Source: an uncultured Pseudomonadota bacterium (lineage in GTDB: Bacteria > Pseudomonadota > Gammaproteobacteria > Steroidobacterales > Steroidobacteraceae). From it: a DNA stretch of 64,000 nt. Below the pieces are notes generated by a model that was given only the letters and a program-made list of their open reading frames with translations, had not been told where the DNA came from and made no database searches. Location of the stretch: the NCBI GenBank assembly GCA_903884235.1, contig CAISEB010000016.1, positions 62,001 to 126,000 on the forward strand, in the 5' to 3' direction. The position numbers were made by a program, and so were the translations under genes. The number at the start of each line of letters is the position of its first letter. Position 1 is the stretch's first letter. Shown one piece after another: positions 48,559 to 63,695 of this stretch.

Positions 48559-49704
48559 TCACGATTCGAGCAGCACGGACGCCTGCGCGTCCCAGCTGAG
48601 GTAAACCTCGTCGCTCCAGTCGATGCGCCAGTCGAGCGTGCGGCGTTCGTTCTGGGCGAACGCAGTCACGATCTTGCCGCTCGAGGTCTTCACCTGGTAG
48701 ACGGAGCGGTTGCCCAGGTAGCCGAGCTCCCACACGACACCCTTCAGGTGGTTGCGGCCGAGTGTCTCGTCCGCAGTCTTGCCGAGCCGGATCTTCTCCG
48801 GGCGCACCGCCATCCACACCGCATCGCCGGGCCGGTGCTTGCCGCAGTCCTCGGCCAGCAGGTTGCAGCCGAGCTCCGGTGCGGTGACCGTGAGCTGCCG
48901 GCCGTCCGCAGCGGCGACCGTGCCCTCGATGAGGTTCGCCGTGCCGAAGAAGTCGGCGACGAAGCGGGTCTTCGGGAACTCGTAGACCTCGGCGGGCGTG
49001 CCGACCTGCACGACCGAGCCGCGGTCCATCACCGCGATCCGGCTGGAGAGCGCCATCGCCTCGTCCTGGTCATGGGTCACGACGATGAACGTGATGCCGA
49101 CCTCGGCCTGGAGGTCCATCAGCTCGAACTGCGTGCTCTCGCGGAGTTTCTTGTCGAGTGCGCTCAGCGGTTCGTCGAGCAGCAGCACCTTCGGTCGCTT
49201 GATCAACGCGCGGGCGAGCGCGACCCGCTGGCGCTGGCCACCGGACAGCTGGTGCGGCTTGCGCTGGCCGAGGCCGCCGAGCTGGACCATCTCCAGCGCC
49301 TCGTCGATGCGCCGCGTGCGCGTCGCCCGGTCGAGGCCATCCCGCTTGATGCCGTAGCCGACGTTGTCGGCCACCGACATGTGCGGGAACAGGGCATAGG
49401 ACTGGAACATCATGTTGACCGGCCGCTCGTAGGGCGGCACGTCGGTCATGTCGACGCCGTCGATCGTGATGCGGCCGGTCGTCGGCGTCACGAACCCGGC
49501 CAGCATGCGCAGCAGCGTCGTCTTGCCGCAACCCGAGGCGCCGACCAGCGCGAACATCTCGCCCTTGTGGATCGAGAGGTCGACGCCGCCGACGGCCTTG
49601 AAGTCGCCGTAGTTCTTGCCAATGCCCTCGAGCACGATCTGCGGCCGGGCGGCTGCATCCAGCCATGGCCGGTCGGCGAGGTTTTGCCGCTGCGAGGTGA
49701 TCAA
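48559..49704 (-). CDS. ABC transporter ATPase, polyamine/spermidine-putrescine (PotA/PotG) type
   Basis: 381 residues. Walker A GASGCGKTTLL, Q-loop MMFQSYALFPHMSVADNVGYG, signature LSGGQRQRVALARAL, Walker B VLLLDEPLSALD and H-loop VVTHDQDEAM occupy about residues 25-260, followed by a TOBE domain. The start appears to be TTG at 49704, with GGGG stretches upstream; no ATG or GTG alternative is available before the ATPase core. It is embedded in an oxidoreductase operon, while its probable permease partners lie at 61324-63083 on the other strand. No substrate-binding protein gene is in the window. Confidence 0.9.
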   Translation of the reverse strand: MITSQRQNLADRPWLDAAARPQIVLEGIGKNYGDFKAVGGVDLSIHKGEMFALVGASGCGKTTLLRMLAGFVTPTTGRITIDGVDMTDVPPYERPVNMMFQSYALFPHMSVADNVGYGIKRDGLDRATRTRRIDEALEMVQLGGLGQRKPHQLSGGQRQRVALARALIKRPKVLLLDEPLSALDKKLRESTQFELMDLQAEVGITFIVVTHDQDEAMALSSRIAVMDRGSVVQVGTPAEVYEFPKTRFVADFFGTANLIEGTVAAADGRQLTVTAPELGCNLLAEDCGKHRPGDAVWMAVRPEKIRLGKTADETLGRNHLKGVVWELGYLGNRSVYQVKTSSGKIVTAFAQNERRTLDWRIDWSDEVYLSWDAQASVLLES

Positions 49705-49789: not shown

Positions 49790-50995
49790 TCATCGATCGG
49801 CGGGGGGCGTGAGGCGCCGGCGGTCCGGCGCGAAGAACGGTCGCTCGACGACGCGGGCGGCGACCATCCGTCGCTCCCAGACGAGTTCGCGGTTCAGGTA
49901 GATGTCCGCCCAGACGGTGGACCCCATCGCATGGTGCGGCGCGTCGATGATGGCGAGCGCGAGGTTGCGCTTGCAGGTGGGCGACCACAGCGCGGACATC
50001 ACGCTGCCGACCTCGTGGTTGCCGTCCCGATCGCGGTACAGCAGCGCGTTGTGGGCGGGCTTGTTGCCCTCGACGTCGATACCGACGAGCAGGCGCGACA
50101 GTCCCCGGCGCTGCTGCGCAAGGAGCGCGCGGCGGCCGGTGTAGTGGGGCTTGTCGAACTCGACCAGCCACCCGAGCCCGAGCTCGAGCGGCGTCCGGTC
50201 GCGGCCTATGCGGACCGTGTGCTCGGCCGACACGAAGTCGACGTTGGGCATCAGGAAGCCGGCTTCGATGCGCGCCATGTTGAGCGCCTGCGAGCCGATT
50301 GCGCGCAGCCCCCGGGTCTGCCCGGCCGACATCAGTTCGTCCCAGGTCGTCAGGGCATGCTCCGGGTGCATCCACAGTTCATACCCAAGATCGCCCGTGA
50401 AGCCGGTGCGCGAGACCATGATCGTGCCTCCGCGCACCGTGAAATCGCGCAGCTCGAACGGCTTCAGCGTCTCGATGCCCTCGAGTCCGAAGCGCTTGAG
50501 GATGTAGCAGGACGTCGGTCCCTGCATCGACAGGGCGGCGATGTCCTCGGTCACTTCCTCGACGACGACGTCGAAGCCGATTGCGGAATCGAGCAGCCAG
50601 TCGAGCTGGCGCTCGGCGGTGCACACCCGGAAGTCATTCGGGCCCAGCCGGAACAGCGTGCCGTCGTCGATGATGTGCCCGTCGTCATTGCACCAGACGA
50701 CGTAGCTGACGCGTCCGACCCGCAGCTTGCGAACGTCGCGGGTGACGAGGTGATTGAGGTAGCGCTCGGCGTCCGGTCCCGCAACCCGGTACTTCACCAT
50801 CGGCGTGATGTCGTACAGCGTCGAGGCGTTGCGGATCGCGAAGTATTCCTGCTCCGCTGACGTGAACACATCGACGGTCGTGTAGCCGGCCCACGGCACA
50901 TAGCTGTCGTGCTGCGACAGGGCCCGGGCGCGGGCGTGGAACGGCGTCTCGAGCAGCGGCTTGAGGAAGTGCGGCACGGAGTGCTCGGTGCTCAT
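49790..50995 (-). CDS. GcvT-family tetrahydrofolate-dependent aminomethyltransferase/demethylase
   Basis: 401 residues. The GcvT fold is shown by ASTLYDITPMVKYRVAGPDAERYLNHLVTRDV, SMQGPTSCYILKRF, SRTGFTGDLGYELWM and RIEAGFLMPNVDF, then a C-terminal barrel domain. Standalone members act as glycine-cleavage T-proteins or as THF-dependent O-, N- or S-demethylases (for example DMSP demethylase). No glycine-cleavage P or H genes are nearby, so a demethylase role on an amine produced by the adjacent flavoproteins is more likely; this is inferred. The ATG overlaps the stop of the upstream flavoprotein gene (ATGA). Confidence 0.85.
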   Translation of the reverse strand: MSTEHSVPHFLKPLLETPFHARARALSQHDSYVPWAGYTTVDVFTSAEQEYFAIRNASTLYDITPMVKYRVAGPDAERYLNHLVTRDVRKLRVGRVSYVVWCNDDGHIIDDGTLFRLGPNDFRVCTAERQLDWLLDSAIGFDVVVEEVTEDIAALSMQGPTSCYILKRFGLEGIETLKPFELRDFTVRGGTIMVSRTGFTGDLGYELWMHPEHALTTWDELMSAGQTRGLRAIGSQALNMARIEAGFLMPNVDFVSAEHTVRIGRDRTPLELGLGWLVEFDKPHYTGRRALLAQQRRGLSRLLVGIDVEGNKPAHNALLYRDRDGNHEVGSVMSALWSPTCKRNLALAIIDAPHHAMGSTVWADIYLNRELVWERRMVAARVVERPFFAPDRRRLTPPADR

Positions 50996-52572
50996 GGGGT
51001 GTCTCCGGCGTCGAGCATGCGTCGCGCGGCATTGAGTCCGGCGAGGCCCATCACGCCGCCTCCCGGGTGGCAGCTCGCCCCGCACAGGTAGAGTCCTTGC
51101 AGTGGTGTCGCGTACTGGGAAGCGCCGGGCACGGGCCTGACCATGTAGAACTGGTCGAACGCGAGATCGCCATGGTGCCAGTGCCCGCCCGGGACCCGGA
51201 ACTCGCGCTCGAGGTCCTCCGGCGTGCTCAGCTCGCTCGCGACGATGCTGTTGCGCAGCCCCGGGGCGTAGGCCTCGAGGCGGGCCAGGATCGCCTCGAG
51301 GAACGGGCGCTTCTCGGCGGCCCAGCCGGCCTTCGGCGCGTACGGGGCGTACTGCACGATCGCCGAGAGCACGTGGTGGCCGGCCGGGGCGAGCGACGGA
51401 TCGGACACCGTCGGCAGGGTGATCTCGAGCGCGGGGGACGAGGGCCATTCGCCGTACTTGCTCGGGTTGAACGCGCGCTCGAGGTAGTCGAGCGAGGGCG
51501 AGACGACGAGACGACCGCCGAGGGCTGCGGGCGCCGTGCCGCGGAAGCCGGGCAGCCGGTCGAGGGCGAGGTGCAGCTTCGCGGCGAGCCCGCTGGTGCG
51601 CACGTGATCGACCCGGCGCACGAAGCCGGTATCCAGGTGCTCGGGACCGAGCAGCTTCAGGAACGTCGTCTTGACGTCGGCGCTCGACACGACCCGGCCT
51701 GCGCCGATGGTCTCGCCGGAGGCGAGCACGACGCCCGTGGCGCGATCGTCCGCGACGAGGATGCGCTCCACCGGGGAGGCCGTGCGGATCGCCGCGCCCG
51801 CGGCGGTCGCGGCACGCGCGAGCGCCAGCGACAGGGCGCCGAGCCCACCGCGTGGCAGCGCCAGCGGCATCGGCCCCGCTGCCGATTCCGCGGCGAGCCG
51901 GTAGAGCAGCGTCAGCACCGTGCCGGGCGCGCGCGGGCCGAAGTTCGTGCCGAGCACGGCGTCGAGGCCGAGGGCGCCCTTCAGCAGCGACGATTCGAAC
52001 TCGTCTTCCAGCAGGTCATAGGCATTCATGCCGACGATGCGCAGGAACTCGCGCATGTCCCGCCGTCCGAGCAGCCGTAGCCGCAGTCCGACCTTCGCGA
52101 GCGCCACCTTGTCCGTCCACGCCTCGGTGCCGAGCCGCGGTGGCGGTGCCGCGAGCAGCGTGTGCAGCAGTCGCGCGAACCGGGCAAGGCGGCCCTGCCA
52201 CGCGGGCCAGGCGGCCGCATCCCGGGCGGTCCAGCCGGCACCCGGCGTGCCGCCGCAGGCGAGCGCAAGGCCCGTGCCCTCGTCGCCCAGCGCAGTCGTG
52301 GCAAGCGACGTGGCTGCGAATTCGAGCCCGTGCCCGGACAGGTTGAGCTCGCGCATCAGCGCGAGCGGCATCTGGTGCAGCAGGTGTGCGCCGGAGGAGA
52401 CGCGGTAGCCCGGCGCGAATTCCCGGGTCACGGCCATGCCGCCGACCTGGTCGGCGGCTTCGACGACGAGCACGGAACGGCCCGCGCGCGCGAGCGTCGC
52501 GGCGCAGACGAGGCCGTTGTGGCCGGCACCGATGACGATGACGTCGTACTGGTTCGAGGATGGAGTCGCCAT
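50992..52572 (-). CDS. PYROXD2/phytoene-desaturase-like FAD oxidoreductase, copy 2
   Basis: 526 residues. The N-terminal FAD Rossmann motif is VIVIGAGHNGLVCAATLARAG (residues about 10-30). GGMAVTREF, RVVSSADVKTTFL and the C-terminal FAD-closing motif GLYLCGASCHPGGGVMGLAGLNAARRML follow. It belongs to the amine-oxidase/CrtI superfamily, with no carotenoid genes around it. It is paralogous to the gene immediately upstream (3-bp separation) and overlaps the GcvT-like gene downstream. Substrate unknown. Tandem pairs can act as heterodimers or on successive oxidation steps. Confidence 0.85.
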   Translation of the reverse strand: MATPSSNQYDVIVIGAGHNGLVCAATLARAGRSVLVVEAADQVGGMAVTREFAPGYRVSSGAHLLHQMPLALMRELNLSGHGLEFAATSLATTALGDEGTGLALACGGTPGAGWTARDAAAWPAWQGRLARFARLLHTLLAAPPPRLGTEAWTDKVALAKVGLRLRLLGRRDMREFLRIVGMNAYDLLEDEFESSLLKGALGLDAVLGTNFGPRAPGTVLTLLYRLAAESAAGPMPLALPRGGLGALSLALARAATAAGAAIRTASPVERILVADDRATGVVLASGETIGAGRVVSSADVKTTFLKLLGPEHLDTGFVRRVDHVRTSGLAAKLHLALDRLPGFRGTAPAALGGRLVVSPSLDYLERAFNPSKYGEWPSSPALEITLPTVSDPSLAPAGHHVLSAIVQYAPYAPKAGWAAEKRPFLEAILARLEAYAPGLRNSIVASELSTPEDLEREFRVPGGHWHHGDLAFDQFYMVRPVPGASQYATPLQGLYLCGASCHPGGGVMGLAGLNAARRMLDAGDTP

Positions 52573-52574
52573 GA

Positions 52575-54176
52575 TCAGGCGCTCCGTCCGAGGTCGGCCA
52601 GCACGCGCCGCGCGCAGTTCGCGCCCGGTGCCCCCATCACGCCACCGCCCGGGTGGGTCGAGGACCCGGACAGGTAGAGGCCCTTCACCGGCGTGCGGTA
52701 CTGGGCGTAGCCCGGGACCGGCCGGTTGAACAGCAGTTGGTCCATCGTCAGCTCGCCCTGGAAGATGTTGCCCTCGGTCAGGCCGACCTCGCGCTCGATG
52801 TCCCAGGGCGTGCGGACCTCCATGTGGCGGATCAGACTGCGGAAGTCCGGGCTCTGGCGTTCGATCGCCTGGACGACGGTCTCGCCGAAGGCGGCGCGCT
52901 TGGCGTCCGTCCACGGGCCATCGGCGAGCTCGTACGGGCAGTACTGCACGAATACCGACATGTAGTGCTTGCCGTCGGCCGCCATCGTCGGGTCGATCTG
53001 CGAGGGCATCAGCATGTCGACGTAGGGTGCCTGCGACCAGCGTCCGTCCTTCCAGTCGTCGTAGGCGCGCTCCATCATCTCGATCGTGTCGGTGATGTGC
53101 AGGTCGCCGCGGATCGCGGGCGAGCCCTTCGGGATCGCCGGGAACGTCGGCAGCCCGTCGAGCGCGATGTTGAGCTTGCCGGACGAGCCGCGGATCTTGA
53201 AGCGCCGCACGGCCTTCACGAAATCCTCCGGCAGGTGCTCCGCGTCCATAGAATCGAGGAACGTGCGCTTCACGTCCATGTTCGAGACCACGATCTTGGC
53301 CCCGATCTCCTCGCCGCTGGCGAGCGCGACGCCGCAGCTGCGCCCATTGCGCACGAGGATGCGCTCGACCGGCGCGCCGGTGCGGACGGCGCCGCCACTG
53401 GCCTGCAGCGACTTGGTCAGCGACGCGGTGACCGAACCCATGCCGCCGCGCGCGAAGCCCCAGGCGCCGACGGTCTCGTCGATGTCGCCCATGTAGTGGT
53501 GCAGCAGCACGTACGCGCTGCCGGGCGAGCGGGGACCGAGTGCCGTGCCGATGATCGAGCTGCCGGCGAAGTGCGCCTTGACGATCTCGCTCTCGAAGTA
53601 CTCGTCGAGGAAGTCCGCGGCCGACATCGTCCAGAACCTGAGCGTGTCGTACATCCGCTCCTCGCCCATGCGATGGAAGCGCTGGCCGATGTAGAGCAGT
53701 TCCGTGATGTCGCGCGGCTTGAACGACGTCGGATCCGGGGGTTCGCGCAGCAGCAGCGGCCGGATGAACTTGCACTGGCGGATCACGTCGCGCGAATAGC
53801 GATCGTAGGCCTCCGCGTCGCGCTTCGAGTGCCGGGCGATCTCGCGACGCAGGGCGTCGTGGTTGTCGTACAGCGCGAGGTGGTTGCCGTCGCGCATCAT
53901 CGTGCAGCCGCCGTCGTAGGGAATGATCTGCAGGCCGTAGCGGGGCAACTCCAGCGTGCGCATGATCTCCGGACGCAGCAGGCTGCAGACGTAGGAGCAG
54001 TTCGAGTAGGTGAAGTCCTCGTACAGCTGGCGGCTGACCGCCGCGCCGCCGATGTAGTCGTTGCGCTCGACGACGAGCACATCGAGGCCGGCGCGCGCGA
54101 GGTAGCACGCGGCGACGAGCCCGTTGTGGCCTGCGCCGACGACGATGACGTCGTGGCGCTTTGCGGTGGCAGCCAT
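52575..54176 (-). CDS. PYROXD2/phytoene-desaturase-like FAD oxidoreductase, copy 1
   Basis: 533 residues. VIVVGAGHNGLVAACYLARAG at the N-terminus, GGAAVSRQL, IVVSNMDVKRTFLDSM in the middle and GLYLSGSSTHPGGGVMGAPGANCARRVL at the C-terminus define the family. The end motifs match its downstream paralogue (52572-50992) closely, although the mid-regions differ, so the duplication is old. It starts 15 bp after the class III aminotransferase stop and is in the same operon. It probably oxidises a C-N or C-C bond of an imported amine, but no activity can be read from sequence. Confidence 0.86.
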   Translation of the reverse strand: MAATAKRHDVIVVGAGHNGLVAACYLARAGLDVLVVERNDYIGGAAVSRQLYEDFTYSNCSYVCSLLRPEIMRTLELPRYGLQIIPYDGGCTMMRDGNHLALYDNHDALRREIARHSKRDAEAYDRYSRDVIRQCKFIRPLLLREPPDPTSFKPRDITELLYIGQRFHRMGEERMYDTLRFWTMSAADFLDEYFESEIVKAHFAGSSIIGTALGPRSPGSAYVLLHHYMGDIDETVGAWGFARGGMGSVTASLTKSLQASGGAVRTGAPVERILVRNGRSCGVALASGEEIGAKIVVSNMDVKRTFLDSMDAEHLPEDFVKAVRRFKIRGSSGKLNIALDGLPTFPAIPKGSPAIRGDLHITDTIEMMERAYDDWKDGRWSQAPYVDMLMPSQIDPTMAADGKHYMSVFVQYCPYELADGPWTDAKRAAFGETVVQAIERQSPDFRSLIRHMEVRTPWDIEREVGLTEGNIFQGELTMDQLLFNRPVPGYAQYRTPVKGLYLSGSSTHPGGGVMGAPGANCARRVLADLGRSA

Positions 54177-54191: not shown

Positions 54192-55517
54192 CTACGCCCG
54201 GACCTTCTCTGCCGCCCGGTTCTTCAGCGTCGTGTCGACCGCGATCTCGAAGCCGCGCATCGTGTCGGCGAGGCACGAGTCGTCGTGCGCCGCCGAGATG
54301 AACCACGGTTCGCGCGAGTCGGGCTCGCACAGCACGCCCTCGTCGTGCAGGACCTGCGCCATCGCGTCGTAGAACGCATAGTCGCTGCTCTTCCACGTGC
54401 GGTAGTTGCGCGGCGGCTCGGCGTCGAAGTACAGGCCCGTCATCGACGGGTGGCCGACGAAGCTGTGCGGGATGCCGCGCGCCGTCAGGATCTTGGACAT
54501 GCCCGCCATCATCCGCGTGCCGTAGTCGGCGATCCGGTCGAGCGCGTCGGTCTCGTCCAGGATCTCGAGGCACTTCTCGGCGGCTGCGAGCGACACGGAG
54601 TGCGCGGTGTAGGTGCCGCCGTGGGCGACGCCCCGGCCGAGCTTGCGCATGATCTCCTCGCGGCCCGCCAGCACCGAGATCGGATAGCCATTGGCGACGG
54701 CCTTGGCCAGCGTCGTGATGTCGCCGTGCACGCCGTACAGTTCCTGCACGCCGCCGCGACCGACGCGGAAGCCCGTCTTCACCTCGTCGATGAACAGCAG
54801 CACGCCGTGCTTGTCGCACAGCTCCCGCGCGGCGCGCAGGTACTCGGGCTCGGCGGCGATGCCGAGGCAGTTGCCCATGATCGGCTCGATGAGCATGCAG
54901 GCGATCCGGCCGGCATTGCGCTTGAACGTGTCCTCGAGCTGGTTGGCGTCGTTGGCCTGCACGAAGTGCGCGTAGCCGCGCGCGCCGAGCGGGATGCCTT
55001 CGCTGTAGGGCTTCACCTCGGGCTCGCCGACCTGGCCCCACTTTTCCATCGGCGTGTACCACATGGCCGCGTCGAACAGGCCGTGGTAGCTGCCCTCGAG
55101 CAGGATGTAGTCGTCCTTGCCGGTGTAGGCGCGCGCGAGCCTGAGGCCCGCCATCACCGCCTCGGTGCCGGAGTTCGAGAAGCGCACGAGTTCGGCGGCC
55201 TTGACCATCTTCGAGATGCGATCGGCGACGCGGAACTCACGTTCGGTCGCGAGCGCGAACACGCCGCCGACCTCCATGCCCTCGCGGGCGGCTGCGTCGA
55301 CCTCGGGATGGGCGTAGCCGAGGATGGCCGGGCCGTAACCGAGCCGGTAGTCGACGTAGTGGTTGCCGTCGATGTCCTCGATGCGCGCGCCGCGACCCTG
55401 CTTCACGTAGATCGTCCGGTCTTCGCCCCAGTAGCGGAAGTTCGAGGCGACCCCGAGCGGCAGCTTGGTGACGGCCTTCTTCCACTGGGCATTGCTCTTG
55501 GTCAGGTCGCGCGGCAT
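54192..55517 (-). CDS. Class III aminotransferase (glutamate-1-semialdehyde aminomutase-like)
   Basis: 441 residues. RYWGEDRTIYVKQGRGARIEDIDGNHYVDYRLGYGP, RFSNSGTEAVMAGLRLARAYTGKD, the PLP-contact LLFIDEVKTGFRVGRGG (Asp) and TTLAKAVANGYPISVLAG (Schiff-base Lys) mark a fold-type I omega-aminotransferase closest to the GSA aminomutase group. A dedicated haem role is unlikely because the gene heads a six-gene operon of flavoproteins, GcvT-like protein, ABC ATPase and TonB receptor. The ATG at 55517 has GGAG 8 nt upstream. It is divergent from the Rieske oxygenase pair. Confidence 0.88.
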   Translation of the reverse strand: MPRDLTKSNAQWKKAVTKLPLGVASNFRYWGEDRTIYVKQGRGARIEDIDGNHYVDYRLGYGPAILGYAHPEVDAAAREGMEVGGVFALATEREFRVADRISKMVKAAELVRFSNSGTEAVMAGLRLARAYTGKDDYILLEGSYHGLFDAAMWYTPMEKWGQVGEPEVKPYSEGIPLGARGYAHFVQANDANQLEDTFKRNAGRIACMLIEPIMGNCLGIAAEPEYLRAARELCDKHGVLLFIDEVKTGFRVGRGGVQELYGVHGDITTLAKAVANGYPISVLAGREEIMRKLGRGVAHGGTYTAHSVSLAAAEKCLEILDETDALDRIADYGTRMMAGMSKILTARGIPHSFVGHPSMTGLYFDAEPPRNYRTWKSSDYAFYDAMAQVLHDEGVLCEPDSREPWFISAAHDDSCLADTMRGFEIAVDTTLKNRAAEKVRA

Positions 55518-55805
55518 GGCCGTTCTCCGGTGTCTCGAAACGGGAATCGGGGAGCACGCTAGCAGAGCGTTTTGGCGCCGTCCACGGAAATTTATATGTC
55601 CATATAGTTTTCGATCGTGCGGCGGCGCAGCATCGGTGCGGATCGTGCCCGGGGCAACGCGACTCTCTATCAAATGATTGTAAATAAACAATAAAATAGA
55701 AGTTCAGGGCGTCCCTGAAGGCGCGGAACTGGACACCCGGCCGCTTGCCGGCGAGCGTGCTACGGGCGTAAATTGAACGTGCATATAGGCCAAGGAGGGA
55801 TTGAC
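55518..55805. promoter_or_regulatory. Divergent control region between aminotransferase and Rieske operons
   Basis: 288 bp, AT-rich at 55585-55610 and 55670-55705. It holds the palindrome TATATG-N2-CATATA (55593-55606), a CATATAG half-site near 55782-55788 and the dyad ATTGT-N6-ACAAT (55677-55692). A weak + strand promoter TTGCCG-N18-TAAATT (55745-55774) would start transcription at the half-site. An AAGGAGG Shine-Dalgarno lies 7-8 nt before the Rieske ATG. Confidence 0.5.
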
Positions 55806-56978
55806 ATGACGACCGCCCCGACTGCTGCGGGACGGCCCCGCTTGGCGCTGCCGGCGTGGGTCTACAACCACCCGGAGATGACCCGTCTCGAGACCGAGCG
55901 GGTGCTGCGGCCCAGCTGGCAGATCGCCTGCCACGTCAGTTCCCTGCCGGCCTCCGGCGACTACGTGGCCTTCGACCTCGGCGCGGACAGCGTGCTCGTG
56001 CTGCGCGACCGGGACGGTGCGATCCGCGCCTTCCACAACGTCTGCCGCCATCGCGGGGCGCGGCTCGTCGACGGCACCGGCCACTGCCCCGGCGCCGTGA
56101 CCTGCCCGTACCACGGCTGGTCGTACCGCTTCGACGGTTCGCTGCGGGCCATTCCGGGGGCCGAGACGTTCCCGGGCCTCGACCGTGGCGCGCACGCCCT
56201 GAAGCCCGTCCACGTCGAGGTCCTGCTCGGCTTCGTGTTCATCAGCTTCGCCGACGCGCCGGCGCCGCTTGCGCCCCAGTGGGCACCAATCCTCGATGAG
56301 TTCGCGCCGTACCGGATCGAGGAGATGGTGCCGCTCGGTCCCGTCGGCTACGAGGACTGGGAGGTCGACTGGAAGGTCGCGATGGACAACTACCTCGAGT
56401 CCTACCATGTGCCCATCGGGCATCCAGGCCTCTACCGCCTGTGTACGCCCGACTACGAGGACCAGCGGGGCATCCCGGGCATCGCACGCGGCACGGGCTG
56501 GCTGCGCGACGCGCCGTCGCCGCGCTGGTCCGAGCGCATGTACCAACAGCTCGTGTCGCGGGTCGTCACCGACCTGCCGGAGCCGAACCGGCGCGCCTGG
56601 CGTTCCTACAGCGTGCTGCCGAACCTCGGGATCGACGTCTACCCCGAGCAGATCGACTTCTTCCAGATCCTGCCGCGTGGCCCCGGGCGCTGCCAGATCC
56701 GCTATGCGCTCTTCGGCCTGCCGGATGCACGGCGCGAGATGCGCGTGCTGCGTGCACTCGGGCAGCGCATCAACGCGGCGGTCAACGAGGAGGACCGGGC
56801 GCTGTGCCTGCGGGTCCAGCGTGGGCTCGCCTCGCCGAGCTACACGCCGGGGCCACTGTCGGCGATCGAGACGTGGATGGGCGAGTTCCACGACCTGCTC
56901 GAATCCAGGATCCCGGAGCTGCGGCTGGCGCAGCCACCGTCGCATTTCGGGCCGGCGCCTGCACGGGATGCCGCATGA
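55806..56978 (+). CDS. Rieske non-heme iron oxygenase, alpha subunit (betaine/carnitine oxygenase-like), copy 1
   Basis: 390 residues. The [2Fe-2S] Rieske ligands are Cys80-x-His82 and Cys100-x2-His103 (NVCRHRG and CPYHGW). The mononuclear iron site is in DWKVAMDNYLESYHVPIGHPG (His201, His206), with the third Asp expected in the C-terminal helix around NEEDRALCLRVQRG. The pattern fits the GbcA/CntA group that hydroxylates quaternary ammonium compounds. The ATG at 55806 has a near-perfect AAGGAGG. Its stop overlaps the second oxygenase gene (ATGA). No reductase (GbcB/CntB) or ferredoxin gene is in the window. Substrate by context: glycine betaine or a related amine. Confidence 0.88.
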   Translation: MTTAPTAAGRPRLALPAWVYNHPEMTRLETERVLRPSWQIACHVSSLPASGDYVAFDLGADSVLVLRDRDGAIRAFHNVCRHRGARLVDGTGHCPGAVTCPYHGWSYRFDGSLRAIPGAETFPGLDRGAHALKPVHVEVLLGFVFISFADAPAPLAPQWAPILDEFAPYRIEEMVPLGPVGYEDWEVDWKVAMDNYLESYHVPIGHPGLYRLCTPDYEDQRGIPGIARGTGWLRDAPSPRWSERMYQQLVSRVVTDLPEPNRRAWRSYSVLPNLGIDVYPEQIDFFQILPRGPGRCQIRYALFGLPDARREMRVLRALGQRINAAVNEEDRALCLRVQRGLASPSYTPGPLSAIETWMGEFHDLLESRIPELRLAQPPSHFGPAPARDAA

Positions 56979-58153
56979 ATGCCACGCCCACCGACGACCC
57001 GACCGCAGGGGGCTTCAACGGCCTGAAGCGACTCGAGCACTCATTGCCGAGCAGGTGGTACCACGACCCGGTGCAGTACGCTCGCGAGCTCGATGCGATC
57101 TGGTATCGCCGCTGGGTGTATCTCTGCCGCGCCGCGACACTGCCCGAATCGCGCTCGTTCCGGACGTTCACGCTCGGCACGCAGCCAATCCTGCTGGTGC
57201 GGGACGAGCAGGGCGAGCTGCGCGCGTACTACAACACCTGCCGCCATCGCGGCGCCGCGCTCTGCCAGGAGCCCGAGGGACGCGTGCCGGCCGGAGGGAT
57301 CACCTGTCCGTACCACGGCTGGAACTACCGCCTGAGCGGGGAACTCGCGCGGATCCCGTCGGCCGGCCGCGCGCACTTCGTCGAGCGCGCCGAGCACGGG
57401 CTGTATCCCATCGCGATGCGGGTCTGGCGCGGCTTCGTGTACGTGAACCTCGCGGGCGACCAGGGCCCCGCGTTCGACGACAACTTCAACGGCAACACGC
57501 GCCAGTTCGCGAACTGGCCGGTGGAGGGCCTCGAGCTCGGCCACCGGATGACCAAGCGTGCGCGCTGCAACTGGAAGGTCTTCTGGGAAAACTACAACGA
57601 GTGCCTGCACTGCCCCGGCGTGCATCCGGGCCTCGTCGACATGGTGCCGATCTACCGGCGCGGCATCATGGAGGAGCGCGACGACCCGGCGTGGGCGACG
57701 CATCCGCCGGGCGACGATCCGCTGCATCGCGGCGGCCTCAAGCGCGGCGCGGTGACCTGGACCGCGGACGGCAAGTCACTCGGCAACGACTTCAGCCAGC
57801 TGACGGACGAGGAACGGCGCGTCGGCTACCACTTCCTGACGAGCTTGCCGTCGCAGTACATCGTGTTCCACGTCGACCACGTGCGCTCCGCGCGGCTGCT
57901 GCCGCTCGGCCCGGAGGAATTGGAACTCGAAGTCGAATGGCTGTTCCCGAGGGCCACGCTCGCGGACCCCACGATCGACATCATGAAGGCCTGCGACTTC
58001 TCGGCCGGCGTGATGCTCGAGGACGCGGCGATCTGCGAGGTCGCCCAGCGCGGACTGCACGCCCAGCCCCACGTGCGCGGCGTGCTGATGCCGGAGGAAT
58101 ACGACGTCTGGCGCTTCCAGCGCTGGGTGCTGGAGGCACTGGGCGCCGGCTGA
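56975..58153 (+). CDS. Rieske non-heme iron oxygenase, alpha subunit (GbcA-like), copy 2
   Basis: 392 residues. Rieske ligands are Cys89-x-His91 (NTCRHRG) and Cys111-x2-His114 (CPYHGW). The iron ligands His212 and His217 are in WKVFWENYNECLHCPGVHPGL, a motif very like glycine betaine monooxygenase GbcA. It is translationally coupled to copy 1. Two alpha subunits in one operon may form a mixed oligomer or act on successive methylated substrates. GbcA-type enzymes demethylate glycine betaine to dimethylglycine, which would feed the dehydrogenase encoded at 27563-29980. Confidence 0.88.
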   Translation: MNATPTDDPTAGGFNGLKRLEHSLPSRWYHDPVQYARELDAIWYRRWVYLCRAATLPESRSFRTFTLGTQPILLVRDEQGELRAYYNTCRHRGAALCQEPEGRVPAGGITCPYHGWNYRLSGELARIPSAGRAHFVERAEHGLYPIAMRVWRGFVYVNLAGDQGPAFDDNFNGNTRQFANWPVEGLELGHRMTKRARCNWKVFWENYNECLHCPGVHPGLVDMVPIYRRGIMEERDDPAWATHPPGDDPLHRGGLKRGAVTWTADGKSLGNDFSQLTDEERRVGYHFLTSLPSQYIVFHVDHVRSARLLPLGPEELELEVEWLFPRATLADPTIDIMKACDFSAGVMLEDAAICEVAQRGLHAQPHVRGVLMPEEYDVWRFQRWVLEALGAG

Positions 58154-58172: not shown

Positions 58173-59666
58173 TCAGCCGAGGTGCACCCAGGCGGATTTC
58201 GTCTGGGTGTAGCCGAGCAGGCTCTCGAGGCACTTGTCGCGGCCCTGGCCGGACTGCTTGTAGCCGCCGAATGGCTGCGTCATGTCGCCATGGTCGAAGC
58301 AGTTGACCCAGATCACGCCGGCCTCGAGATCGCGCACGGCCGTGTGGGCCGTGACGAGGTCGCGCGTCCAGACGGACGCGGCGAGGCCGTAGATCGAGTC
58401 GTTGGCGATCGCCAGCGCGTTCTCGAGGCCGTCGACGACGATGGCGGCCGCGACGGGCCCGAAGATTTCCTCGCGCGCGATCGTCATGCGGGCGCTGACG
58501 CCCGAGAACAGCGTCGGGTTCACGTAGCTGCCGGGCAGTTCCGGGCGGCTGCCGCCGAATTCGAGCTTCGCGCCTTCCTGCTTCGCACCTTCGATGTAGC
58601 TGACGACGCGCGCGCAGTGCGAGCTCGTGACCAGGGGCCCGAGGTTCGTGGACGGGTCCAGCGGGTCGCCGGCCCGGTAGGCATCCCGGCCGCGCTCGAC
58701 GAAGCGGGCGATGAACTCCTCCGCGATCGGCCGGTCGACGAGCAGGCGCGAGCCGGCGTTGCACACCTCGCCCATGTTCCCGAAGATGCCGTTGATCGCG
58801 TAGGTCACGGCGCGGTCGATGTCGCCGAGGTCGGACAGGAAGATCTGCGGCGACTTGCCGCCGCACTCGAGGCTGACGCGCTTCATGTTCGACTGGCCCG
58901 CGTAGACCAGCATCAGCTTGCCGACCTCGGTGGATCCCGTGAACGCGACCTTGTTGACGTCCATGTGCAGGGCGAGCGCGGAGCCGACGGTCTCGCCGAG
59001 GCCGTTGACGACGTTGAACACGCCCGGCGGTCCGCCAGCCTCGATGAACAGCTCCGCCATCACGAGGGCTGACAGCGGCGACTGCTCGGCGGGCTTCAGC
59101 ACGACCGAGTTGCCGGCCGCGAGCGCGGGCGCGACCTTCCAGGACGCCATCAGCAGCGGGTAGTTCCAGGGCACGATGCAGCCGACGACGCCGAGCGGCT
59201 CGCGCAGGATGTAGTGGAACGCATCCGCCGCGGTCGAGGTCACGGCGCCGTCGACCTTGTCGATGAGCTCGGCGAAGTAGGTGAAGGTCTGCACGGCCGA
59301 CGGGATGTCGATGTTCAGCATGTCGCTGATCGGCTTGCCCATCGTCAGCGTGTCGAGCAGCGCGAGGCGCTCCGCATTCTCCGACAGCAGGCCGGCGAAC
59401 CGGGTCATCACGGCCATGCGGTCGCGTGGCGCCATGCGCCGCCAGGCGCCGCTCTTGAACGCGCGGCGACCCGAGGCGACCGCGACGTCGATGTCGGCGG
59501 CGGTGCCGGCGGCGACCTCGCACAGCGGCTGGCCCGTGGCCGGGTTCGTGACGACGAAGCGCTGGCCGGCCCTGGCGGGCACGTGGCTGCCGTCGATGAA
59601 GTGGCCGGTTTCGTAGCGCAGCGCGGCGGCGCGCGCATGCCAGTCGTGGGTCGAAAGGGTCGTCAT
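58173..59666 (-). CDS. NAD(P)-dependent aldehyde dehydrogenase (PuuC/aminoaldehyde type)
   Basis: 497 residues with VPWNYPLLMASWKVAPALAAGNSVVLKPAEQSP, VAFTGSTEVGKLM, VSLECGGKSPQ (Glu), MGEVCNAGSRL (catalytic Cys) and EEIFGPVAA. The closest functional group is gamma-glutamyl-gamma-aminobutyraldehyde and other omega-aminoaldehyde dehydrogenases. Its ATG overlaps the stop of the TetR-pseudo-Rieske gene (ATGA), so regulator and enzyme are made from one message. It could oxidise aldehydes released by oxygenase action, or the trimethylaminobutyraldehyde precursor of gamma-butyrobetaine. This is inferred. Confidence 0.9.
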   Translation of the reverse strand: MTTLSTHDWHARAAALRYETGHFIDGSHVPARAGQRFVVTNPATGQPLCEVAAGTAADIDVAVASGRRAFKSGAWRRMAPRDRMAVMTRFAGLLSENAERLALLDTLTMGKPISDMLNIDIPSAVQTFTYFAELIDKVDGAVTSTAADAFHYILREPLGVVGCIVPWNYPLLMASWKVAPALAAGNSVVLKPAEQSPLSALVMAELFIEAGGPPGVFNVVNGLGETVGSALALHMDVNKVAFTGSTEVGKLMLVYAGQSNMKRVSLECGGKSPQIFLSDLGDIDRAVTYAINGIFGNMGEVCNAGSRLLVDRPIAEEFIARFVERGRDAYRAGDPLDPSTNLGPLVTSSHCARVVSYIEGAKQEGAKLEFGGSRPELPGSYVNPTLFSGVSARMTIAREEIFGPVAAAIVVDGLENALAIANDSIYGLAASVWTRDLVTAHTAVRDLEAGVIWVNCFDHGDMTQPFGGYKQSGQGRDKCLESLLGYTQTKSAWVHLG

Positions 59667-61219
59667 GGGCGGTCTCCAGGGGAACGGGCGCTGCCCGGCA
59701 GCAGCCGGGCGATCGAGCGACGGAAGGCCTCGAGCGCCGGTGGCGTCGAGGCGGATGTCTCGGGACGGTAGGCGGGCGATTCTAAGCCGCGCTGCACCGA
59801 CTCCGCGAGCGCGAGCTCGCCGGCGAGCGCAGGGCGGGGTGCCGCGCGTGTCGCGGCGGTGGACGGGCGGGCGTAGTCGTGGATGCGCAGCCGGGACCGG
59901 CCCGCCGCGACCGGGATGACCTGCAGCACGAGCAGTCCGGTCGCCGTGGACCGAAGCAGGTGATTCGGCGCGACGAAGCTCGTCGTCGCCCCGGCTTCAT
60001 CGCCGACCTCCGCACCGCCATCGACTGCGAGGGCGGGCCGCTCCAGCCAGTTCTCCACCACGACCTTCCAGTCCGCCGCGACCTCGATCTCGTCATGGCT
60101 ACCGCCGGCGAGCCCGGCAACCTGGGCGGCGGACATCGCCCGCGCCGCCGGTGGCGGCCCGGCCGCGCCACTGCGCACCCACAGCAGGTCATCCACGACG
60201 GCCAGTGAGAGGCCGTCCAGCGGCCCGCCCGGCGTGTCGCCGTGGGCTTCGCCCGCGAGCCCGTAATGCAGCCCGTGCAGCTCGCAGCGGATGCCGTCGG
60301 TGAGCCGGCCGGCCGGTGCCGGGACGAGCAGGTGGGGGCGCTGGCGGCAGACATTGCGCAGCGCCCGCAGGGCGCCGTCCGTGCCGCGAACGACGAGCGC
60401 CCGCTCCACCGGTCCGTCGATCACGACGTAGTCGCCTGCGGCGGCGAGTTCGCCGGCAAGGCCCGCGAACTGCCAGCTGTCCCGGTACAGCGCGTCGAGC
60501 TCGAGCGCGAACACGGCCGGCGCCGCGTAGGCGGCGGGCGGGAGCGTCGGCGCGCGTCCCTCGCCCGCCGGCACGAACGCGGTCGGGAATACCGAGCGCA
60601 GATAGCCGAAGGCGCGGCGTCGCGCGCCGGCCCGGTCGATGGTCGACTCCGTCTGGAACGCGAATCCCTGCCAGAGCATCTCGAGCACGCCGATCAGGCC
60701 CAGCGCGATCGCGTCCGCGTCCAGGTGCAGCAGCCGCTCGCGATCGATCACCGCCGCGACGAGGTCGCGCACCAGGGTCTCGAACTTGCTGTCGCGCGTG
60801 CCACAGATGTCGTAGTACTCCTGGCGCGAGCTCGCCTCGCCCCAGAACGAGTACCAGACCGACACCTTGCGGGCGCTCGCGATCTCGGGTCCCAGGTACA
60901 GCTCGACCAGCCGGGCGAGCGCCTCGACCGGCCGATCGCGCAGCGCGGCGACGGGGACCAGCACCTGCTCCTCGAATTCGGTGGCCAGGAACTCGAGGGA
61001 CGCGACCAGCATCGCGTCCTTCGACTCGAAGTAGAAGCGGACGATGCCCGGCGACAGGTGGGCGATCGCCACGACCTTCTCGACGGTCGTCTTCGACGGG
61101 CCGTGCAGGTGCAGCGCCGAGATGCAGGCGTCGATCAGGCGCTGGCGCTGGCGTGCCCGGGAGGCCCTCGGCGCCGCGGGTGCCGGCGTCCCGTCCGCGG
61201 GGCGGCGTGGCCCGGTCAT
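59663..61219 (-). CDS. TetR regulator fused to a degenerate Rieske oxygenase domain
   Basis: 518 residues in one uninterrupted frame. Residues about 20-215 form a complete BetI-like TetR protein: helix-turn-helix STVEKVV-like KTTVEKVVAIAHLSPGIVRFYFESKD, then VWYSFWGEASSRQEYYDICG and IGVLEMLWQGFAF. Residues about 225-515 align with the Rieske oxygenase at 55806-56978 (SWQFAGLAGELAAAGDYVV, DGALRALRNVC, RCELHGLHYGLAG, ESVQRGLESPAYRP). The first Rieske His is Gln293 (Cys291-Arg-Gln), while Cys312 and His315 remain. The mononuclear-iron His pair is replaced in WKVVVENWLERPALA. It therefore appears to be a catalytically dead oxygenase serving as a sensor. The ATG at 61219 is preferred; a GTG at 61234 is possible. 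It is coupled to the aldehyde dehydrogenase gene. Confidence 0.87.
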   Translation of the reverse strand: MTGPRRPADGTPAPAAPRASRARQRQRLIDACISALHLHGPSKTTVEKVVAIAHLSPGIVRFYFESKDAMLVASLEFLATEFEEQVLVPVAALRDRPVEALARLVELYLGPEIASARKVSVWYSFWGEASSRQEYYDICGTRDSKFETLVRDLVAAVIDRERLLHLDADAIALGLIGVLEMLWQGFAFQTESTIDRAGARRRAFGYLRSVFPTAFVPAGEGRAPTLPPAAYAAPAVFALELDALYRDSWQFAGLAGELAAAGDYVVIDGPVERALVVRGTDGALRALRNVCRQRPHLLVPAPAGRLTDGIRCELHGLHYGLAGEAHGDTPGGPLDGLSLAVVDDLLWVRSGAAGPPPAARAMSAAQVAGLAGGSHDEIEVAADWKVVVENWLERPALAVDGGAEVGDEAGATTSFVAPNHLLRSTATGLLVLQVIPVAAGRSRLRIHDYARPSTAATRAAPRPALAGELALAESVQRGLESPAYRPETSASTPPALEAFRRSIARLLPGSARSPGDRP

Positions 61220-61323
61220 GCCCCGTCCCCGCACCGCGCGAGGGCGCGCGCCCTTCCCGGCCGCGTCACGCTCGGGCAGACTCGATCGCTGGACGGCGTG
61301 TGCCGGCCTGCACGGAGTCTGGT

Positions 61324-62250
61324 GTGGTGGAACGAACTGGCGGACAACGGCCCTCCCTCGGGGCGTTCGTGGCGCGTTACGGCCGGTGGCTGATCATATT
61401 GCCGCCGCTGGCGTTCCTGGCGGTGTTCTTCCTGATCCCGTTCGGCTTCGCGCTCAAGATCAGCTTCGCCGAGGCGGCGCTCAGGATCCCGCCGTTCACC
61501 GAAGTCTGGACTGTGACGCCGGACCACCACCTGCATTTCGCGCCGAGCCTCGCCAACTACAAGTACCTGCTGACCGACGAAGTTTATGCCGTTTCCTACT
61601 TTTACTCGATCCGGACCGCATTCTTCTCGACCCTGATCTGCCTGCTGATCGGCTACCCGATGGCCTACGCGATGGCCCGCTCGTCGAAGGCGACGCAGGG
61701 CATCCTGATGCTGGTGATCATCCTGCCGTTCTGGACGTCGTTCCTGCTCAGGGTGTATGCCCTCGAGGGCATCATCCGTGACAACGGCCTGCTGAACACG
61801 GCCCTGCTGTGGCTCGGGGTCATCGATCATCCGCTCAAGATCATGCGGACGACGTTCGCGGTCTACCTCGGGATCGTCTATTCCTACCTGCCGTTCATGG
61901 TGCTGCCGCTGTACGCGACGCTCGAGAAGCTCGACCTCACGCTCTTGGAGGCGGCGTCCGACCTCGGCAGCCGGCCATGGCGGGCGTTCGTCGATGTGAC
62001 GCTGCCCCTGTCGATGCCCGGCGTGATCGCCGGTTCCATGCTGGTGTTCATCCCGGCCGTCGGTGAATACGTGATCCCGGCGCTGCTCGGCGGTCCCGAC
62101 AACCTGATGATCGGCCGGGTCCTCTGGGACGAATTCTTCGCGAACCACGACTGGCCGGTGGCCGCGGCGGTGTCGATCGCGTTCCTCGTGCTGCTCGCGG
62201 GGCCCATCGCGCTGCACCAGCACTACCGCGTCGGCCAGATGGAGCACTGA
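61324..62250 (+). CDS. ABC transporter permease, polyamine (PotB/PotH) type
   Basis: About 308 residues with six predicted membrane segments. The EAA loop is LEAASDLGSRPWRAFVDVTLPLSMPGVIAG. LLIGYPMAYAMARSS and IIRDNGLLNTALLWLG are typical of the spermidine/putrescine permease family. GTG at 61324 with GGAG 6 nt upstream is preferred; a GTG three bases later and another at 61369 are alternatives. It is divergent from the TetR-pseudo-Rieske gene across a 104-bp gap. The second permease follows 2 bp after its stop. The ATPase at 48559-49704 is the likely partner. Confidence 0.88.
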   Translation: MVERTGGQRPSLGAFVARYGRWLIILPPLAFLAVFFLIPFGFALKISFAEAALRIPPFTEVWTVTPDHHLHFAPSLANYKYLLTDEVYAVSYFYSIRTAFFSTLICLLIGYPMAYAMARSSKATQGILMLVIILPFWTSFLLRVYALEGIIRDNGLLNTALLWLGVIDHPLKIMRTTFAVYLGIVYSYLPFMVLPLYATLEKLDLTLLEAASDLGSRPWRAFVDVTLPLSMPGVIAGSMLVFIPAVGEYVIPALLGGPDNLMIGRVLWDEFFANHDWPVAAAVSIAFLVLLAGPIALHQHYRVGQMEH

Positions 62251-62252
62251 CC

Positions 62253-63083
62253 TTGGGTACCCGGCCGTCCACATTCCTGATCTCCGTGCTGTGTCTTGGC
62301 ATCGCGTTCCTGTACCTGCCGATGGCGGCACTCGTCGGCTACTCCTTCAATGCCTCGGCGCTGGCGAGCGTGTGGGGCGGATTCTCGACGCAGTGGTACG
62401 TCGCGCTGCTGCACAACCGGCAGGTCCTCAGCGCCGCGGGGCTGTCCCTCGAGATCGCGGTGCTCGCCTCGACTGGCGCGCTCGTGCTCGGCACGCTCGC
62501 GGCGACCGCACTCGTGCGCTTCCGGAAATTCCGCGGGCGCCTGCTGCTGACCGGCATGGTGAATGCGCCGCTCGTGATGCCCGAGATCATCACCGGCATC
62601 ACCCAGCTGCTGCTGTTCGTGTCGATGCTGCAGCTGATCGGCTGGCCGGCCCGCGGCGTGACCACGGTCGTGCTCGCGCACATCGCCTTCTGCACGGCCT
62701 ACGTCACGGTCACCGTGCAGTCGCGCCTGCAGAGCGCGGACCGCTCGCTCGAGGAGGCCGCCATGGACCTCGGTGCGACGCCGTTCCGGGCGTTCATGGA
62801 CGTGACGCTGCCGATCATCGCGCCGGCGCTCGTCTCCAGCTGGCTGCTCAGCTTCACCCTGTCGCTCGACGACCTCGTGATCTCGAGCTTCGTCTCCGGC
62901 CCGCGTTCGAGCACGCTGCCGATGGTGATCTACTCGAAGGTGAAGCTCGGCGTGAGTCCCGACATCAACGCGCTCGCGACGCTGATCATCGCCATCGTCG
63001 GCAGCTGCGTGCTCGTGGCCGGTTACCTCGTGCGGCGCGGTGAGCGCCAGCGCCTCGCCGACGCACAGCTCGCGGCGGGCTGA
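62253..63083 (+). CDS. ABC transporter permease, polyamine (PotC/PotI) type
   Basis: 276 residues with six predicted membrane segments and the EAA motif LEEAAMDLGATPFRAFMDVTLPIIAPALVS. ISSFVSGPRSSTLPMVIYSKVKLGVSPDINALAT is characteristic of PotC/PotI. The start is TTG at 62253, with GGAG located within the last codons of the upstream permease. The two permeases are translationally coupled. The missing periplasmic binding protein would be expected just outside this window or elsewhere in the genome. Confidence 0.9.
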   Translation: MGTRPSTFLISVLCLGIAFLYLPMAALVGYSFNASALASVWGGFSTQWYVALLHNRQVLSAAGLSLEIAVLASTGALVLGTLAATALVRFRKFRGRLLLTGMVNAPLVMPEIITGITQLLLFVSMLQLIGWPARGVTTVVLAHIAFCTAYVTVTVQSRLQSADRSLEEAAMDLGATPFRAFMDVTLPIIAPALVSSWLLSFTLSLDDLVISSFVSGPRSSTLPMVIYSKVKLGVSPDINALATLIIAIVGSCVLVAGYLVRRGERQRLADAQLAAG

Positions 63084-63094
63084 CCCCCGTCCGG

Positions 63095-63676
63095 TCAGGC
63101 GGGCTGCGGTGCGAGGAACGTCAGGTCGTGGGCCGGGCGCGTGAAGATCGCGCGCACCATCGGCTCGAAGCGCGACAGCGGCTCGGTCGGGAAGTCCGGG
63201 TCGAACGAGGACTGGTCCCAGCGTTCGCAGAAGTCCACGCACCCCTGGTACCAGGGGTGGTCGCGGAAGCGATCGCGCCCGTTCCGGTTCCGGTCCTGGT
63301 GATGGGCGTAGTAGTAGCTCTGGAACAGCGCGTGCTGCTCGACGATCCACGTGACTTCGGCGCGCACGTATGGCCTCAGGATCGCGGCGGCGACCGCCGC
63401 GTGGTTGAAGGGTGACAGGTCGTCGCCGATGTCGTGCACGAGAGCCGCGACCACCAGCTCGTCGTCGGCGCCGTCCCTGAGCGCGCGCGTCGCGGTCTGC
63501 AGCGAATGCGCGTAGCGACTCACGGGATAGCCCTGCAGCCCGTCGTCGAGACGCTTGAGCGCGATCAGGATGCGATCCGGCAGCGCGGTCGCGTATTCAT
63601 GCTCCAGTCGCGACAGCAGCGCGTAGTCGGCGCGGGTGCCATCCTTCATCTGGTGGAAGCTGACGGTCTCGGACAT
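63095..63676 (-). CDS. HD-domain protein, probable diiron oxygenase of the PhnZ/TmpB/MIOX type
   Basis: 193 residues. The candidate ligands His57, His81-Asp82, His92, His115 and Asp155 (in RYAHSLQ, LVHDIGDD, FNHAAV, EQHALFQ and ERWDQSSFD) give the six-ligand pattern of HD-domain mixed-valent diiron oxygenases rather than a simple HD phosphohydrolase. Spacing between the first His and HD (24) equals that in PhnZ as I recall it. The ATG at 63676 is chosen because GGAG lies 6 nt upstream. It starts 20 bp after the GMC oxidoreductase stop, on the same strand. TmpB of this family yields glycine betaine from a hydroxylated trimethylaminoethylphosphonate, which would suit this island. The partner hydroxylase TmpA is not in the window. 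Confidence 0.8.
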   Translation of the reverse strand: MSETVSFHQMKDGTRADYALLSRLEHEYATALPDRILIALKRLDDGLQGYPVSRYAHSLQTATRALRDGADDELVVAALVHDIGDDLSPFNHAAVAAAILRPYVRAEVTWIVEQHALFQSYYYAHHQDRNRNGRDRFRDHPWYQGCVDFCERWDQSSFDPDFPTEPLSRFEPMVRAIFTRPAHDLTFLAPQPA

Positions 63677-63695
63677 GGGCATCTCCAGGCTGGGC

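Follow-up and report, generated by a model that had tools for sequence, protein, structure and literature searches.

We analysed a window of 64,000 nucleotides from an uncultured Steroidobacteraceae bacterium (contig CAISEB010000016.1, positions 62,001 to 126,000 of the forward strand), in which a single gene encodes a TetR-type regulator fused to a degenerate Rieske oxygenase alpha subunit. All positions given below are those of the window. The gene is one uninterrupted frame of 518 amino acids starting at ATG (Table 1) and, as the initial annotation had proposed, it joins a TetR protein to a C-terminal region with Rieske oxygenase homology, with four Pfam domains scoring above their cut-offs: TetR_N at residues 28–73 (25.3 bits against a cut-off of 24, barely above), TetR_C_6, the BetI-type C-terminal ligand domain, at residues 97–210 (38.7 bits against 27), Rieske at residues 248–326 (above the curated cut-off) and Ring_hydroxyl_A at residues 416–507 (25.6 against 24.9, barely above). 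The N-terminal helix-turn-helix (HTH) and the BetI-type domain place the protein in the TetR/AcrR family. It scored below the cut-offs of the BetI equivalog model TIGR03384 (65.6 against 201.3) and of the glycine betaine monooxygenase GbcA model NF058607 (55.9 against 670). The C-terminal half has ~30% identity across 188 amino acids to the neighbouring oxygenase (L004), is roughly 85–90 residues shorter than the separate Rieske oxygenase RO1 and possesses both the Rieske and the catalytic (Ring_hydroxyl_A) fold of an alpha subunit, according to Pfam, an AlphaFold model and Foldseek. The model had a mean pLDDT (predicted local distance difference test) of 88.2, and its top match in the PDB was CntA (E = 1e−17; TM-score by target (TMt) 0.69, by query (TMq) 0.47), with stachydrine demethylase also among the top matches.

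Scanning genome contigs with the fusion gave 56 loci. The window protein was aligned with 37 further full-length colinear homologues at 45–68% identity, originating from metagenome-assembled genomes (MAGs) labelled proteobacterium, Proteobacteria, Gammaproteobacteria or Steroidobacteraceae, and within the bacterial family to which the window belongs 74 of 217 genomes gave a match at E ≤ 1e−30, some of these TetR only. The genome of the window contains a single full-length copy. Because colinear open frames recur in many separate assemblies, an assembly join or frameshift bringing together two separate genes is ruled out and the TetR-Rieske fusion is genuine. It should be noted that in one MAG contig (L013:7722-9572) the fusion frame is split into two frames, either by a sequencing error or by a genuine frameshift. 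The 87 fused open reading frames (ORFs) represent 59 distinct oxygenase halves, of which 9 have all ligands intact, 47 (including the window) were counted as window-type and 3 short ones were dropped; these were compared with 46 of 47 RO1 and 11 of 13 RO2 sequences, RO2 being the second separate oxygenase of the cluster.

In the available part of the CntA report (PMC7948474), the Rieske centre consists of Cys86, His88, Cys106 and His109 and the mononuclear iron is held by His208, His213 and Asp323. The window protein has Cys-x-Gln (C291-R-Q293) in the Rieske motif and has lost the His-x4-His iron site, as had been read from the sequence initially. Both iron histidines and the Asp are present in all RO1 (n = 46), RO2 (n = 11) and intact fusion (n = 9) sequences; among the 47 window-type sequences neither histidine was found in any and the Asp in 9. 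The 2-His-1-carboxylate iron site is thus missing and a working oxygenase is ruled out for the window type, which supports the description of a dead oxygenase in the neighbourhood of oxygenases that keep every ligand.

The Rieske site follows a different pattern. The canonical His, two residues after the first Cys, is kept in only 7 of the 47 window-type sequences, with at least 4 state changes in this column on the tree, and the Gln in the window breaks the C-x-H...C-x2-H motif, of which the C-x2-H part is retained. Cys291, Cys312 and His315 are present in 46, 46 and 47 of the 47 sequences, and so is a further histidine five residues after the first Cys (His296, 46/47). This +5 His is also found in 8 of the 9 intact fusions and in none of the RO1 (0/46) or RO2 (0/11) sequences, and it is preceded by Pro in 45 of the 47 window-type sequences, whereas the other 66 sequences all have Gly or Ala there. 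These four metal-type residues rank within the top 13 of 286 columns for conservation (at least 37/38), a ranking with a chance of ~3e−6 that serves as a guide only, the residues having been chosen after inspection. Even the divergent sequences L098–L100 still have C...PH...C..H. The electron-poor half-cluster suggested by the initial annotation does not agree with two Cys and two His residues that are nearly invariant.

The nine intact fusions are open frames of 617–687 codons (genomes G126, G155, G156, G157, G159, G286, G560, G780 and G653; loci L094–L097, L109, L117, L119, L120 and L122) in which TetR is joined to an oxygenase whose Rieske and iron ligands are all present, and from their sequences they are possibly bifunctional repressor-enzymes. 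Homologues of this kind had been expected to overturn the idea of a dead sensor half; they do occur, but as a separate clade which explains the architecture rather than refuting it. Aminotransferase, FAD (flavin adenine dinucleotide) oxidoreductase, FAD oxidoreductase and GcvT genes were found in 5 of the 7 intact-fusion neighbourhoods read (G126, G155, G286, G560 and G780), the fusion in G653 adjoins ATP-binding cassette (ABC) transporter genes and that in G157 has none of the cluster genes across 15 kb at a contig end. A search with the L117 TetR half (E ≤ 1e−30) found long fused frames in 3 of 369 class-sample genomes (G560, G653 and G780) and 0 of 398 phylum-sample genomes; this query misses the window's own gene at the same threshold, so further fusions may have escaped detection.

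Trees were built from chosen subsets, comprising 55 of the 82 TetR rows together with 2 outgroups, and 58 of 121 oxygenase-half rows (including seven of the intact clade) under a mixture model. All sampled fusions fell in one TetR clade (support 100/98), which also contains solo TetRs, and in the oxygenase-half tree the window type was sister to the intact-fusion clade (98/92). Eight of the nine intact fusions were placed beside the window type, L122 having no firm place in the oxygenase-half tree. In an early FastTree the window type stood by itself on a long branch, and the sister placement appeared only with the mixture model; the +5 His common to both groups agrees with it. In approximately unbiased (AU) tests, grouping all fusions together was allowed (p = 0.43), and intact fusions with RO1 as a single clade gave p = 0.073. 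Capture of the fused half from RO2 was rejected (p = 0.007) and capture from the neighbouring RO1 is disfavoured (p = 0.069), so that the earlier view of an enzyme captured from a neighbour is not upheld by the trees. Given the position of the intact fusions next to the window type, the likely course, as read from sequences, is that TetR fused with a complete Rieske oxygenase and that catalysis was lost afterwards. At L139 (G126:C34, minus strand) an unfused TetR gene overlaps the start of a same-strand Rieske oxygenase gene with all ligands, a layout that could give rise to a fusion of this kind. G126 carries both this unfused pair and an intact fusion (L117).

The fusion gene lies among transporter, oxygenase and other enzyme genes (Table 1). 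Its stop codon overlaps the ATG of the aldehyde dehydrogenase gene by four bases (ATGA, 59663–59666) and it is divergent from the PotH-like permease gene, in agreement with the initial description. A shared cluster was found in most of the 51 loci examined (L009–L059, several on short contigs). Two permease genes diverge from the TetR gene, which often has an aldehyde dehydrogenase gene behind it, and the remaining members encode a class-III aminotransferase, one or two Rieske oxygenases, a pair of FAD oxidoreductases, an ABC ATPase and a GcvT-like protein; in L041 the oxygenase and aminotransferase are absent at the usual position. An in-frame ATG at 55806 is possibly the true start of RO1. 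The gene at 63095–63682, beside the permeases, which we take to encode an HD protein on the basis of a motif, has a homologue in 24 of the 51 related loci and in L117 immediately follows the intact fusion.

Table 1 Features of the fusion gene and its neighbourhood (positions in the window).
Feature	Position	Strand	Basis
TetR-Rieske fusion gene, 518 aa	59663–61219	−	ORF, Pfam, homologue scan
TetR half, residues 1–212 (HTH and BetI-type TetR_C_6 core)	60584–61219	−	Pfam
Rieske-like domain, residues 225–349	60173–60547	−	Pfam, AlphaFold model
Metal-site loops: C291, Q293 (canonical His position), P295-H296, C312, H315	60275–60349	−	Alignment
Oxygenase catalytic-fold remnant, residues 372–510	59690–60106	−	Model, alignment
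Conserved helix W384–E393 (W391 = CntA Tyr203 position, E393 = CntA Glu205 position)	60041–60070	−	
Candidate operator palindrome TATATGNNCATATA / TATATGTCCATATA, between AMT3 and RO1 operons	55593–55606		
Class-III aminotransferase AMT3, leading gene of presumed regulated operon	54192–55517	−	
FAD-dependent oxidoreductase 1 (CrtO-like)	52575–54176	−	
FAD-dependent oxidoreductase 2 (CrtO-like)	50992–52566	−	
GcvT-like aminomethyltransferase/demethylase	49790–50995	−	
ABC transporter ATPase	48559–49704	−	Named by eye from sequence
RO1, Rieske oxygenase alpha subunit, all ligands intact	55773–56978	+	Pfam, alignment
RO2, Rieske oxygenase alpha subunit, all ligands intact; start codon uncertain	56924–58153	+	
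Aldehyde dehydrogenase, 4 bp overlap with fusion stop	58173–59666	−	
PotH-like ABC permease, divergent from fusion gene	61324–62250	+	
Second ABC permease	62253–63083	+	Named by eye from sequence

Two intergenic regions had been put forward as candidate binding sites for the regulator, and one of them, 55518–55805, was found to hold a conserved palindrome. TATATGNNCATATA was present with two mismatches or fewer in 37 of 39 AMT3|RO1 intergenic regions (0, 1, 2 and 3 mismatches in 18, 14, 5 and 2 regions respectively), vs a mean of 0.5 and a maximum of 2 in dinucleotide shuffles of the same 39 regions. The palindrome is claimed at this threshold since matches with three mismatches turn up in the shuffles (mean 5, maximum 8 of 39). 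TATATGTCCATATA has a single site in the window at two mismatches or fewer, and the 4.1-Mb genome contains one exact site plus one with one mismatch (C5:21110), whose neighbours look unrelated by eye. The other region, 61220–61323, did not stand: in the TetR|permease regions no palindrome rose above the shuffled controls, and at two mismatches or fewer the AMT3|RO1 palindrome was found in 0 of 43 TetR|permease intergenics upstream of the regulator. From the conservation of the gene cluster we infer that the TetR of the fusion probably binds the palindrome. The regions upstream of the intact fusions contain other palindromes, among which no shared motif was found. Intact-fusion clusters (L110, L117, L130, L133 and L135) have a second, solo TetR beside AMT3, and in L130 and L133 a palindrome ATGAATGA...TCATTCAT lies beside AMT3.

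We tentatively propose that the gene product is a one-component repressor, in which a TetR/BetI-type DNA-binding and effector half is joined to a pseudo-oxygenase half with a rebuilt metal site, a reading to which we give slightly less than an even chance. The fused copy would have lost its mononuclear iron site and become a modulator in a lineage which has separate oxygenases (RO1, and RO2 in some members). The Rieske site would have been remodelled and not lost altogether: Cys291, Cys312 and His315 are retained, His296, following a Pro, possibly substitutes for the lost +2 His, and binding of a [2Fe-2S] cluster or some other metal by this domain may persist. A TetR dimer would bind the palindrome between the AMT3-FAD-FAD-GcvT operon and the RO1-RO2 operon, repressing both, until release is triggered by an imported amine, methylated or quaternary, or by a product, acting on the TetR core. 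The metal-bearing half may make this release dependent on redox state or Fe-S supply, so that the Rieske enzymes would be produced only when they can be loaded. The wider version of this proposal, in which a bifunctional repressor-oxygenase became a factor that senses Fe-S or redox supply through a re-ligated Rieske centre (two Cys, His315 and the relocated His296) and controls the Rieske oxygenases of its own pathway, the relatives with all ligands being repressors that are quaternary-amine oxygenases, is doubtful, if by no means fanciful.

Several observations weigh against the proposal. The oxygenase half evolves far faster than the TetR half: across 38 sequences the mean pairwise identity was 0.81 for the HTH, 0.70 for the TetR core, 0.41 for the Rieske part and 0.34 for the catalytic fold. 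In simple Nei-Gojobori counts for the 14 pairs closest in TetR synonymous divergence (dS 0.19–0.56), the ratio of nonsynonymous to synonymous change (dN/dS) ranged over 0.07–0.47 for TetR, 0.10–0.81 (median 0.48) for the Rieske part and 0.24–0.91 for the catalytic part, with the Rieske value exceeding that of TetR in 13 of 14 pairs. The fused or solo state changed about five times within the window-type clade, probably by losses of the oxygenase half, and the palindrome is still present in seven clusters whose TetR is solo or truncated, which argues that the oxygenase domain is dispensable for operator recognition. By counting, H296 corresponds to His91 of CntA, a residue outside the set of cluster ligands given in the available part of PMC7948474. 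Finally, the AU test joining the window type to RO1 fell short of rejection at 0.05.

The main rival explanation is that the fused half is a vestige, i.e. that a once bifunctional repressor-oxygenase has been decaying since separate oxygenases took over and that the TetR half regulates alone. The rapid divergence, the repeated fused/solo changes and the palindrome shared by the seven solo or truncated clusters all fit this explanation, as do the short Rieske-like remnant kept behind the TetR half in L050, the loss of the first ligand loop in L048 and L108, the varied deletions and dN/dS values of the oxygenase half that reach 0.8–0.9 in some pairs. However, decay does not readily account for four metal-type residues kept in 46–47 of 47 sequences despite mean pairwise identities of 0.34–0.41, for a Rieske-part dN/dS below 1 in 14 of 14 pairs or for a frame that is still open in 47 distinct sequences. 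The oxygenase half is under weak purifying selection and is dispensable in some lineages, and we consider a pure vestige rather unlikely.

A dead oxygenase that binds the quaternary amine oxidised by RO1 and RO2 and signals to the TetR half is improbable. In CntA, Tyr203 binds the quaternary ammonium group, and an aromatic residue at this position defines the enzyme group acting on quaternary ammonium compounds (both from the available part of PMC7948474). This position, on a conserved helix, is Tyr in 45 of 46 RO1, 11 of 11 RO2 and 8 of 9 intact fusions; 38 of the 47 window-type sequences have Trp there, which would be compatible with quaternary-amine sensing. However, both iron histidines and many columns beyond this helix that RO1 and the intact fusions conserve are gapped or changed, and the TetR half already has a BetI-type ligand domain. 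The structure prediction suggested initially gave a confident oxygenase-like model. In the window protein the iron His and the segment following the first iron helix are deleted, and the extent of this deletion differs between members, which argues against the pocket as a conserved sensor. Mixed oligomers, in which the fused half would enter head-to-tail trimers with RO1 and the repressor would be controlled by RO1 in its free or loaded form, are very improbable given how fast this half diverges, even though CntA is such a trimer linked by a bridging Glu205 (PMC7948474, available part) and E393, at the equivalent position, is Glu or Asp in 35 of 47 window-type sequences.

The fusion resembles the BetI/TetR family in its HTH and BetI-type C-terminal domain and differs in ~300 extra oxygenase-derived residues and a BetI score below the cut-off. 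With CntA the fused half shares the fold, the Rieske domain and the aromatic and bridging-Glu positions, but it lacks the mononuclear iron His, has mostly lost the canonical Rieske His and is attached to a DNA-binding protein. IscR/RsrR-type transcription factors have an Fe-S site within a regulator, as the fusion putatively does, and PutA-type proteins combine enzyme and repressor in one chain; the folds of both are unrelated to that of the fusion. The MocR/GabR regulators, described in the available parts of PMC6917764 and PMC8739950, are likewise one-component regulators with a large enzyme-fold C-terminal half, consisting of a GntR HTH and an aminotransferase-fold domain, and differ in DNA-binding family, enzyme and cofactor. 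Regulators with enzyme-fold domains are known, and, in keeping with the initial remark that no described TetR regulator of this architecture was known, no TetR-Rieske fusion was found in the open-access PubMed Central literature as judged from titles and abstract openings.

Across related clusters these genes offer a route by which the change from an enzyme into part of a regulator can be followed: an unfused pair, a fusion with all ligands, a fusion with a dead oxygenase and the loss of the fused half. The loss of the canonical His beside a near-invariant neighbouring His makes ligand switching directly testable, and the conserved, near-unique palindrome is a ready DNA target. If the proposal is true, a Rieske-type site would here serve as a regulatory metal site.

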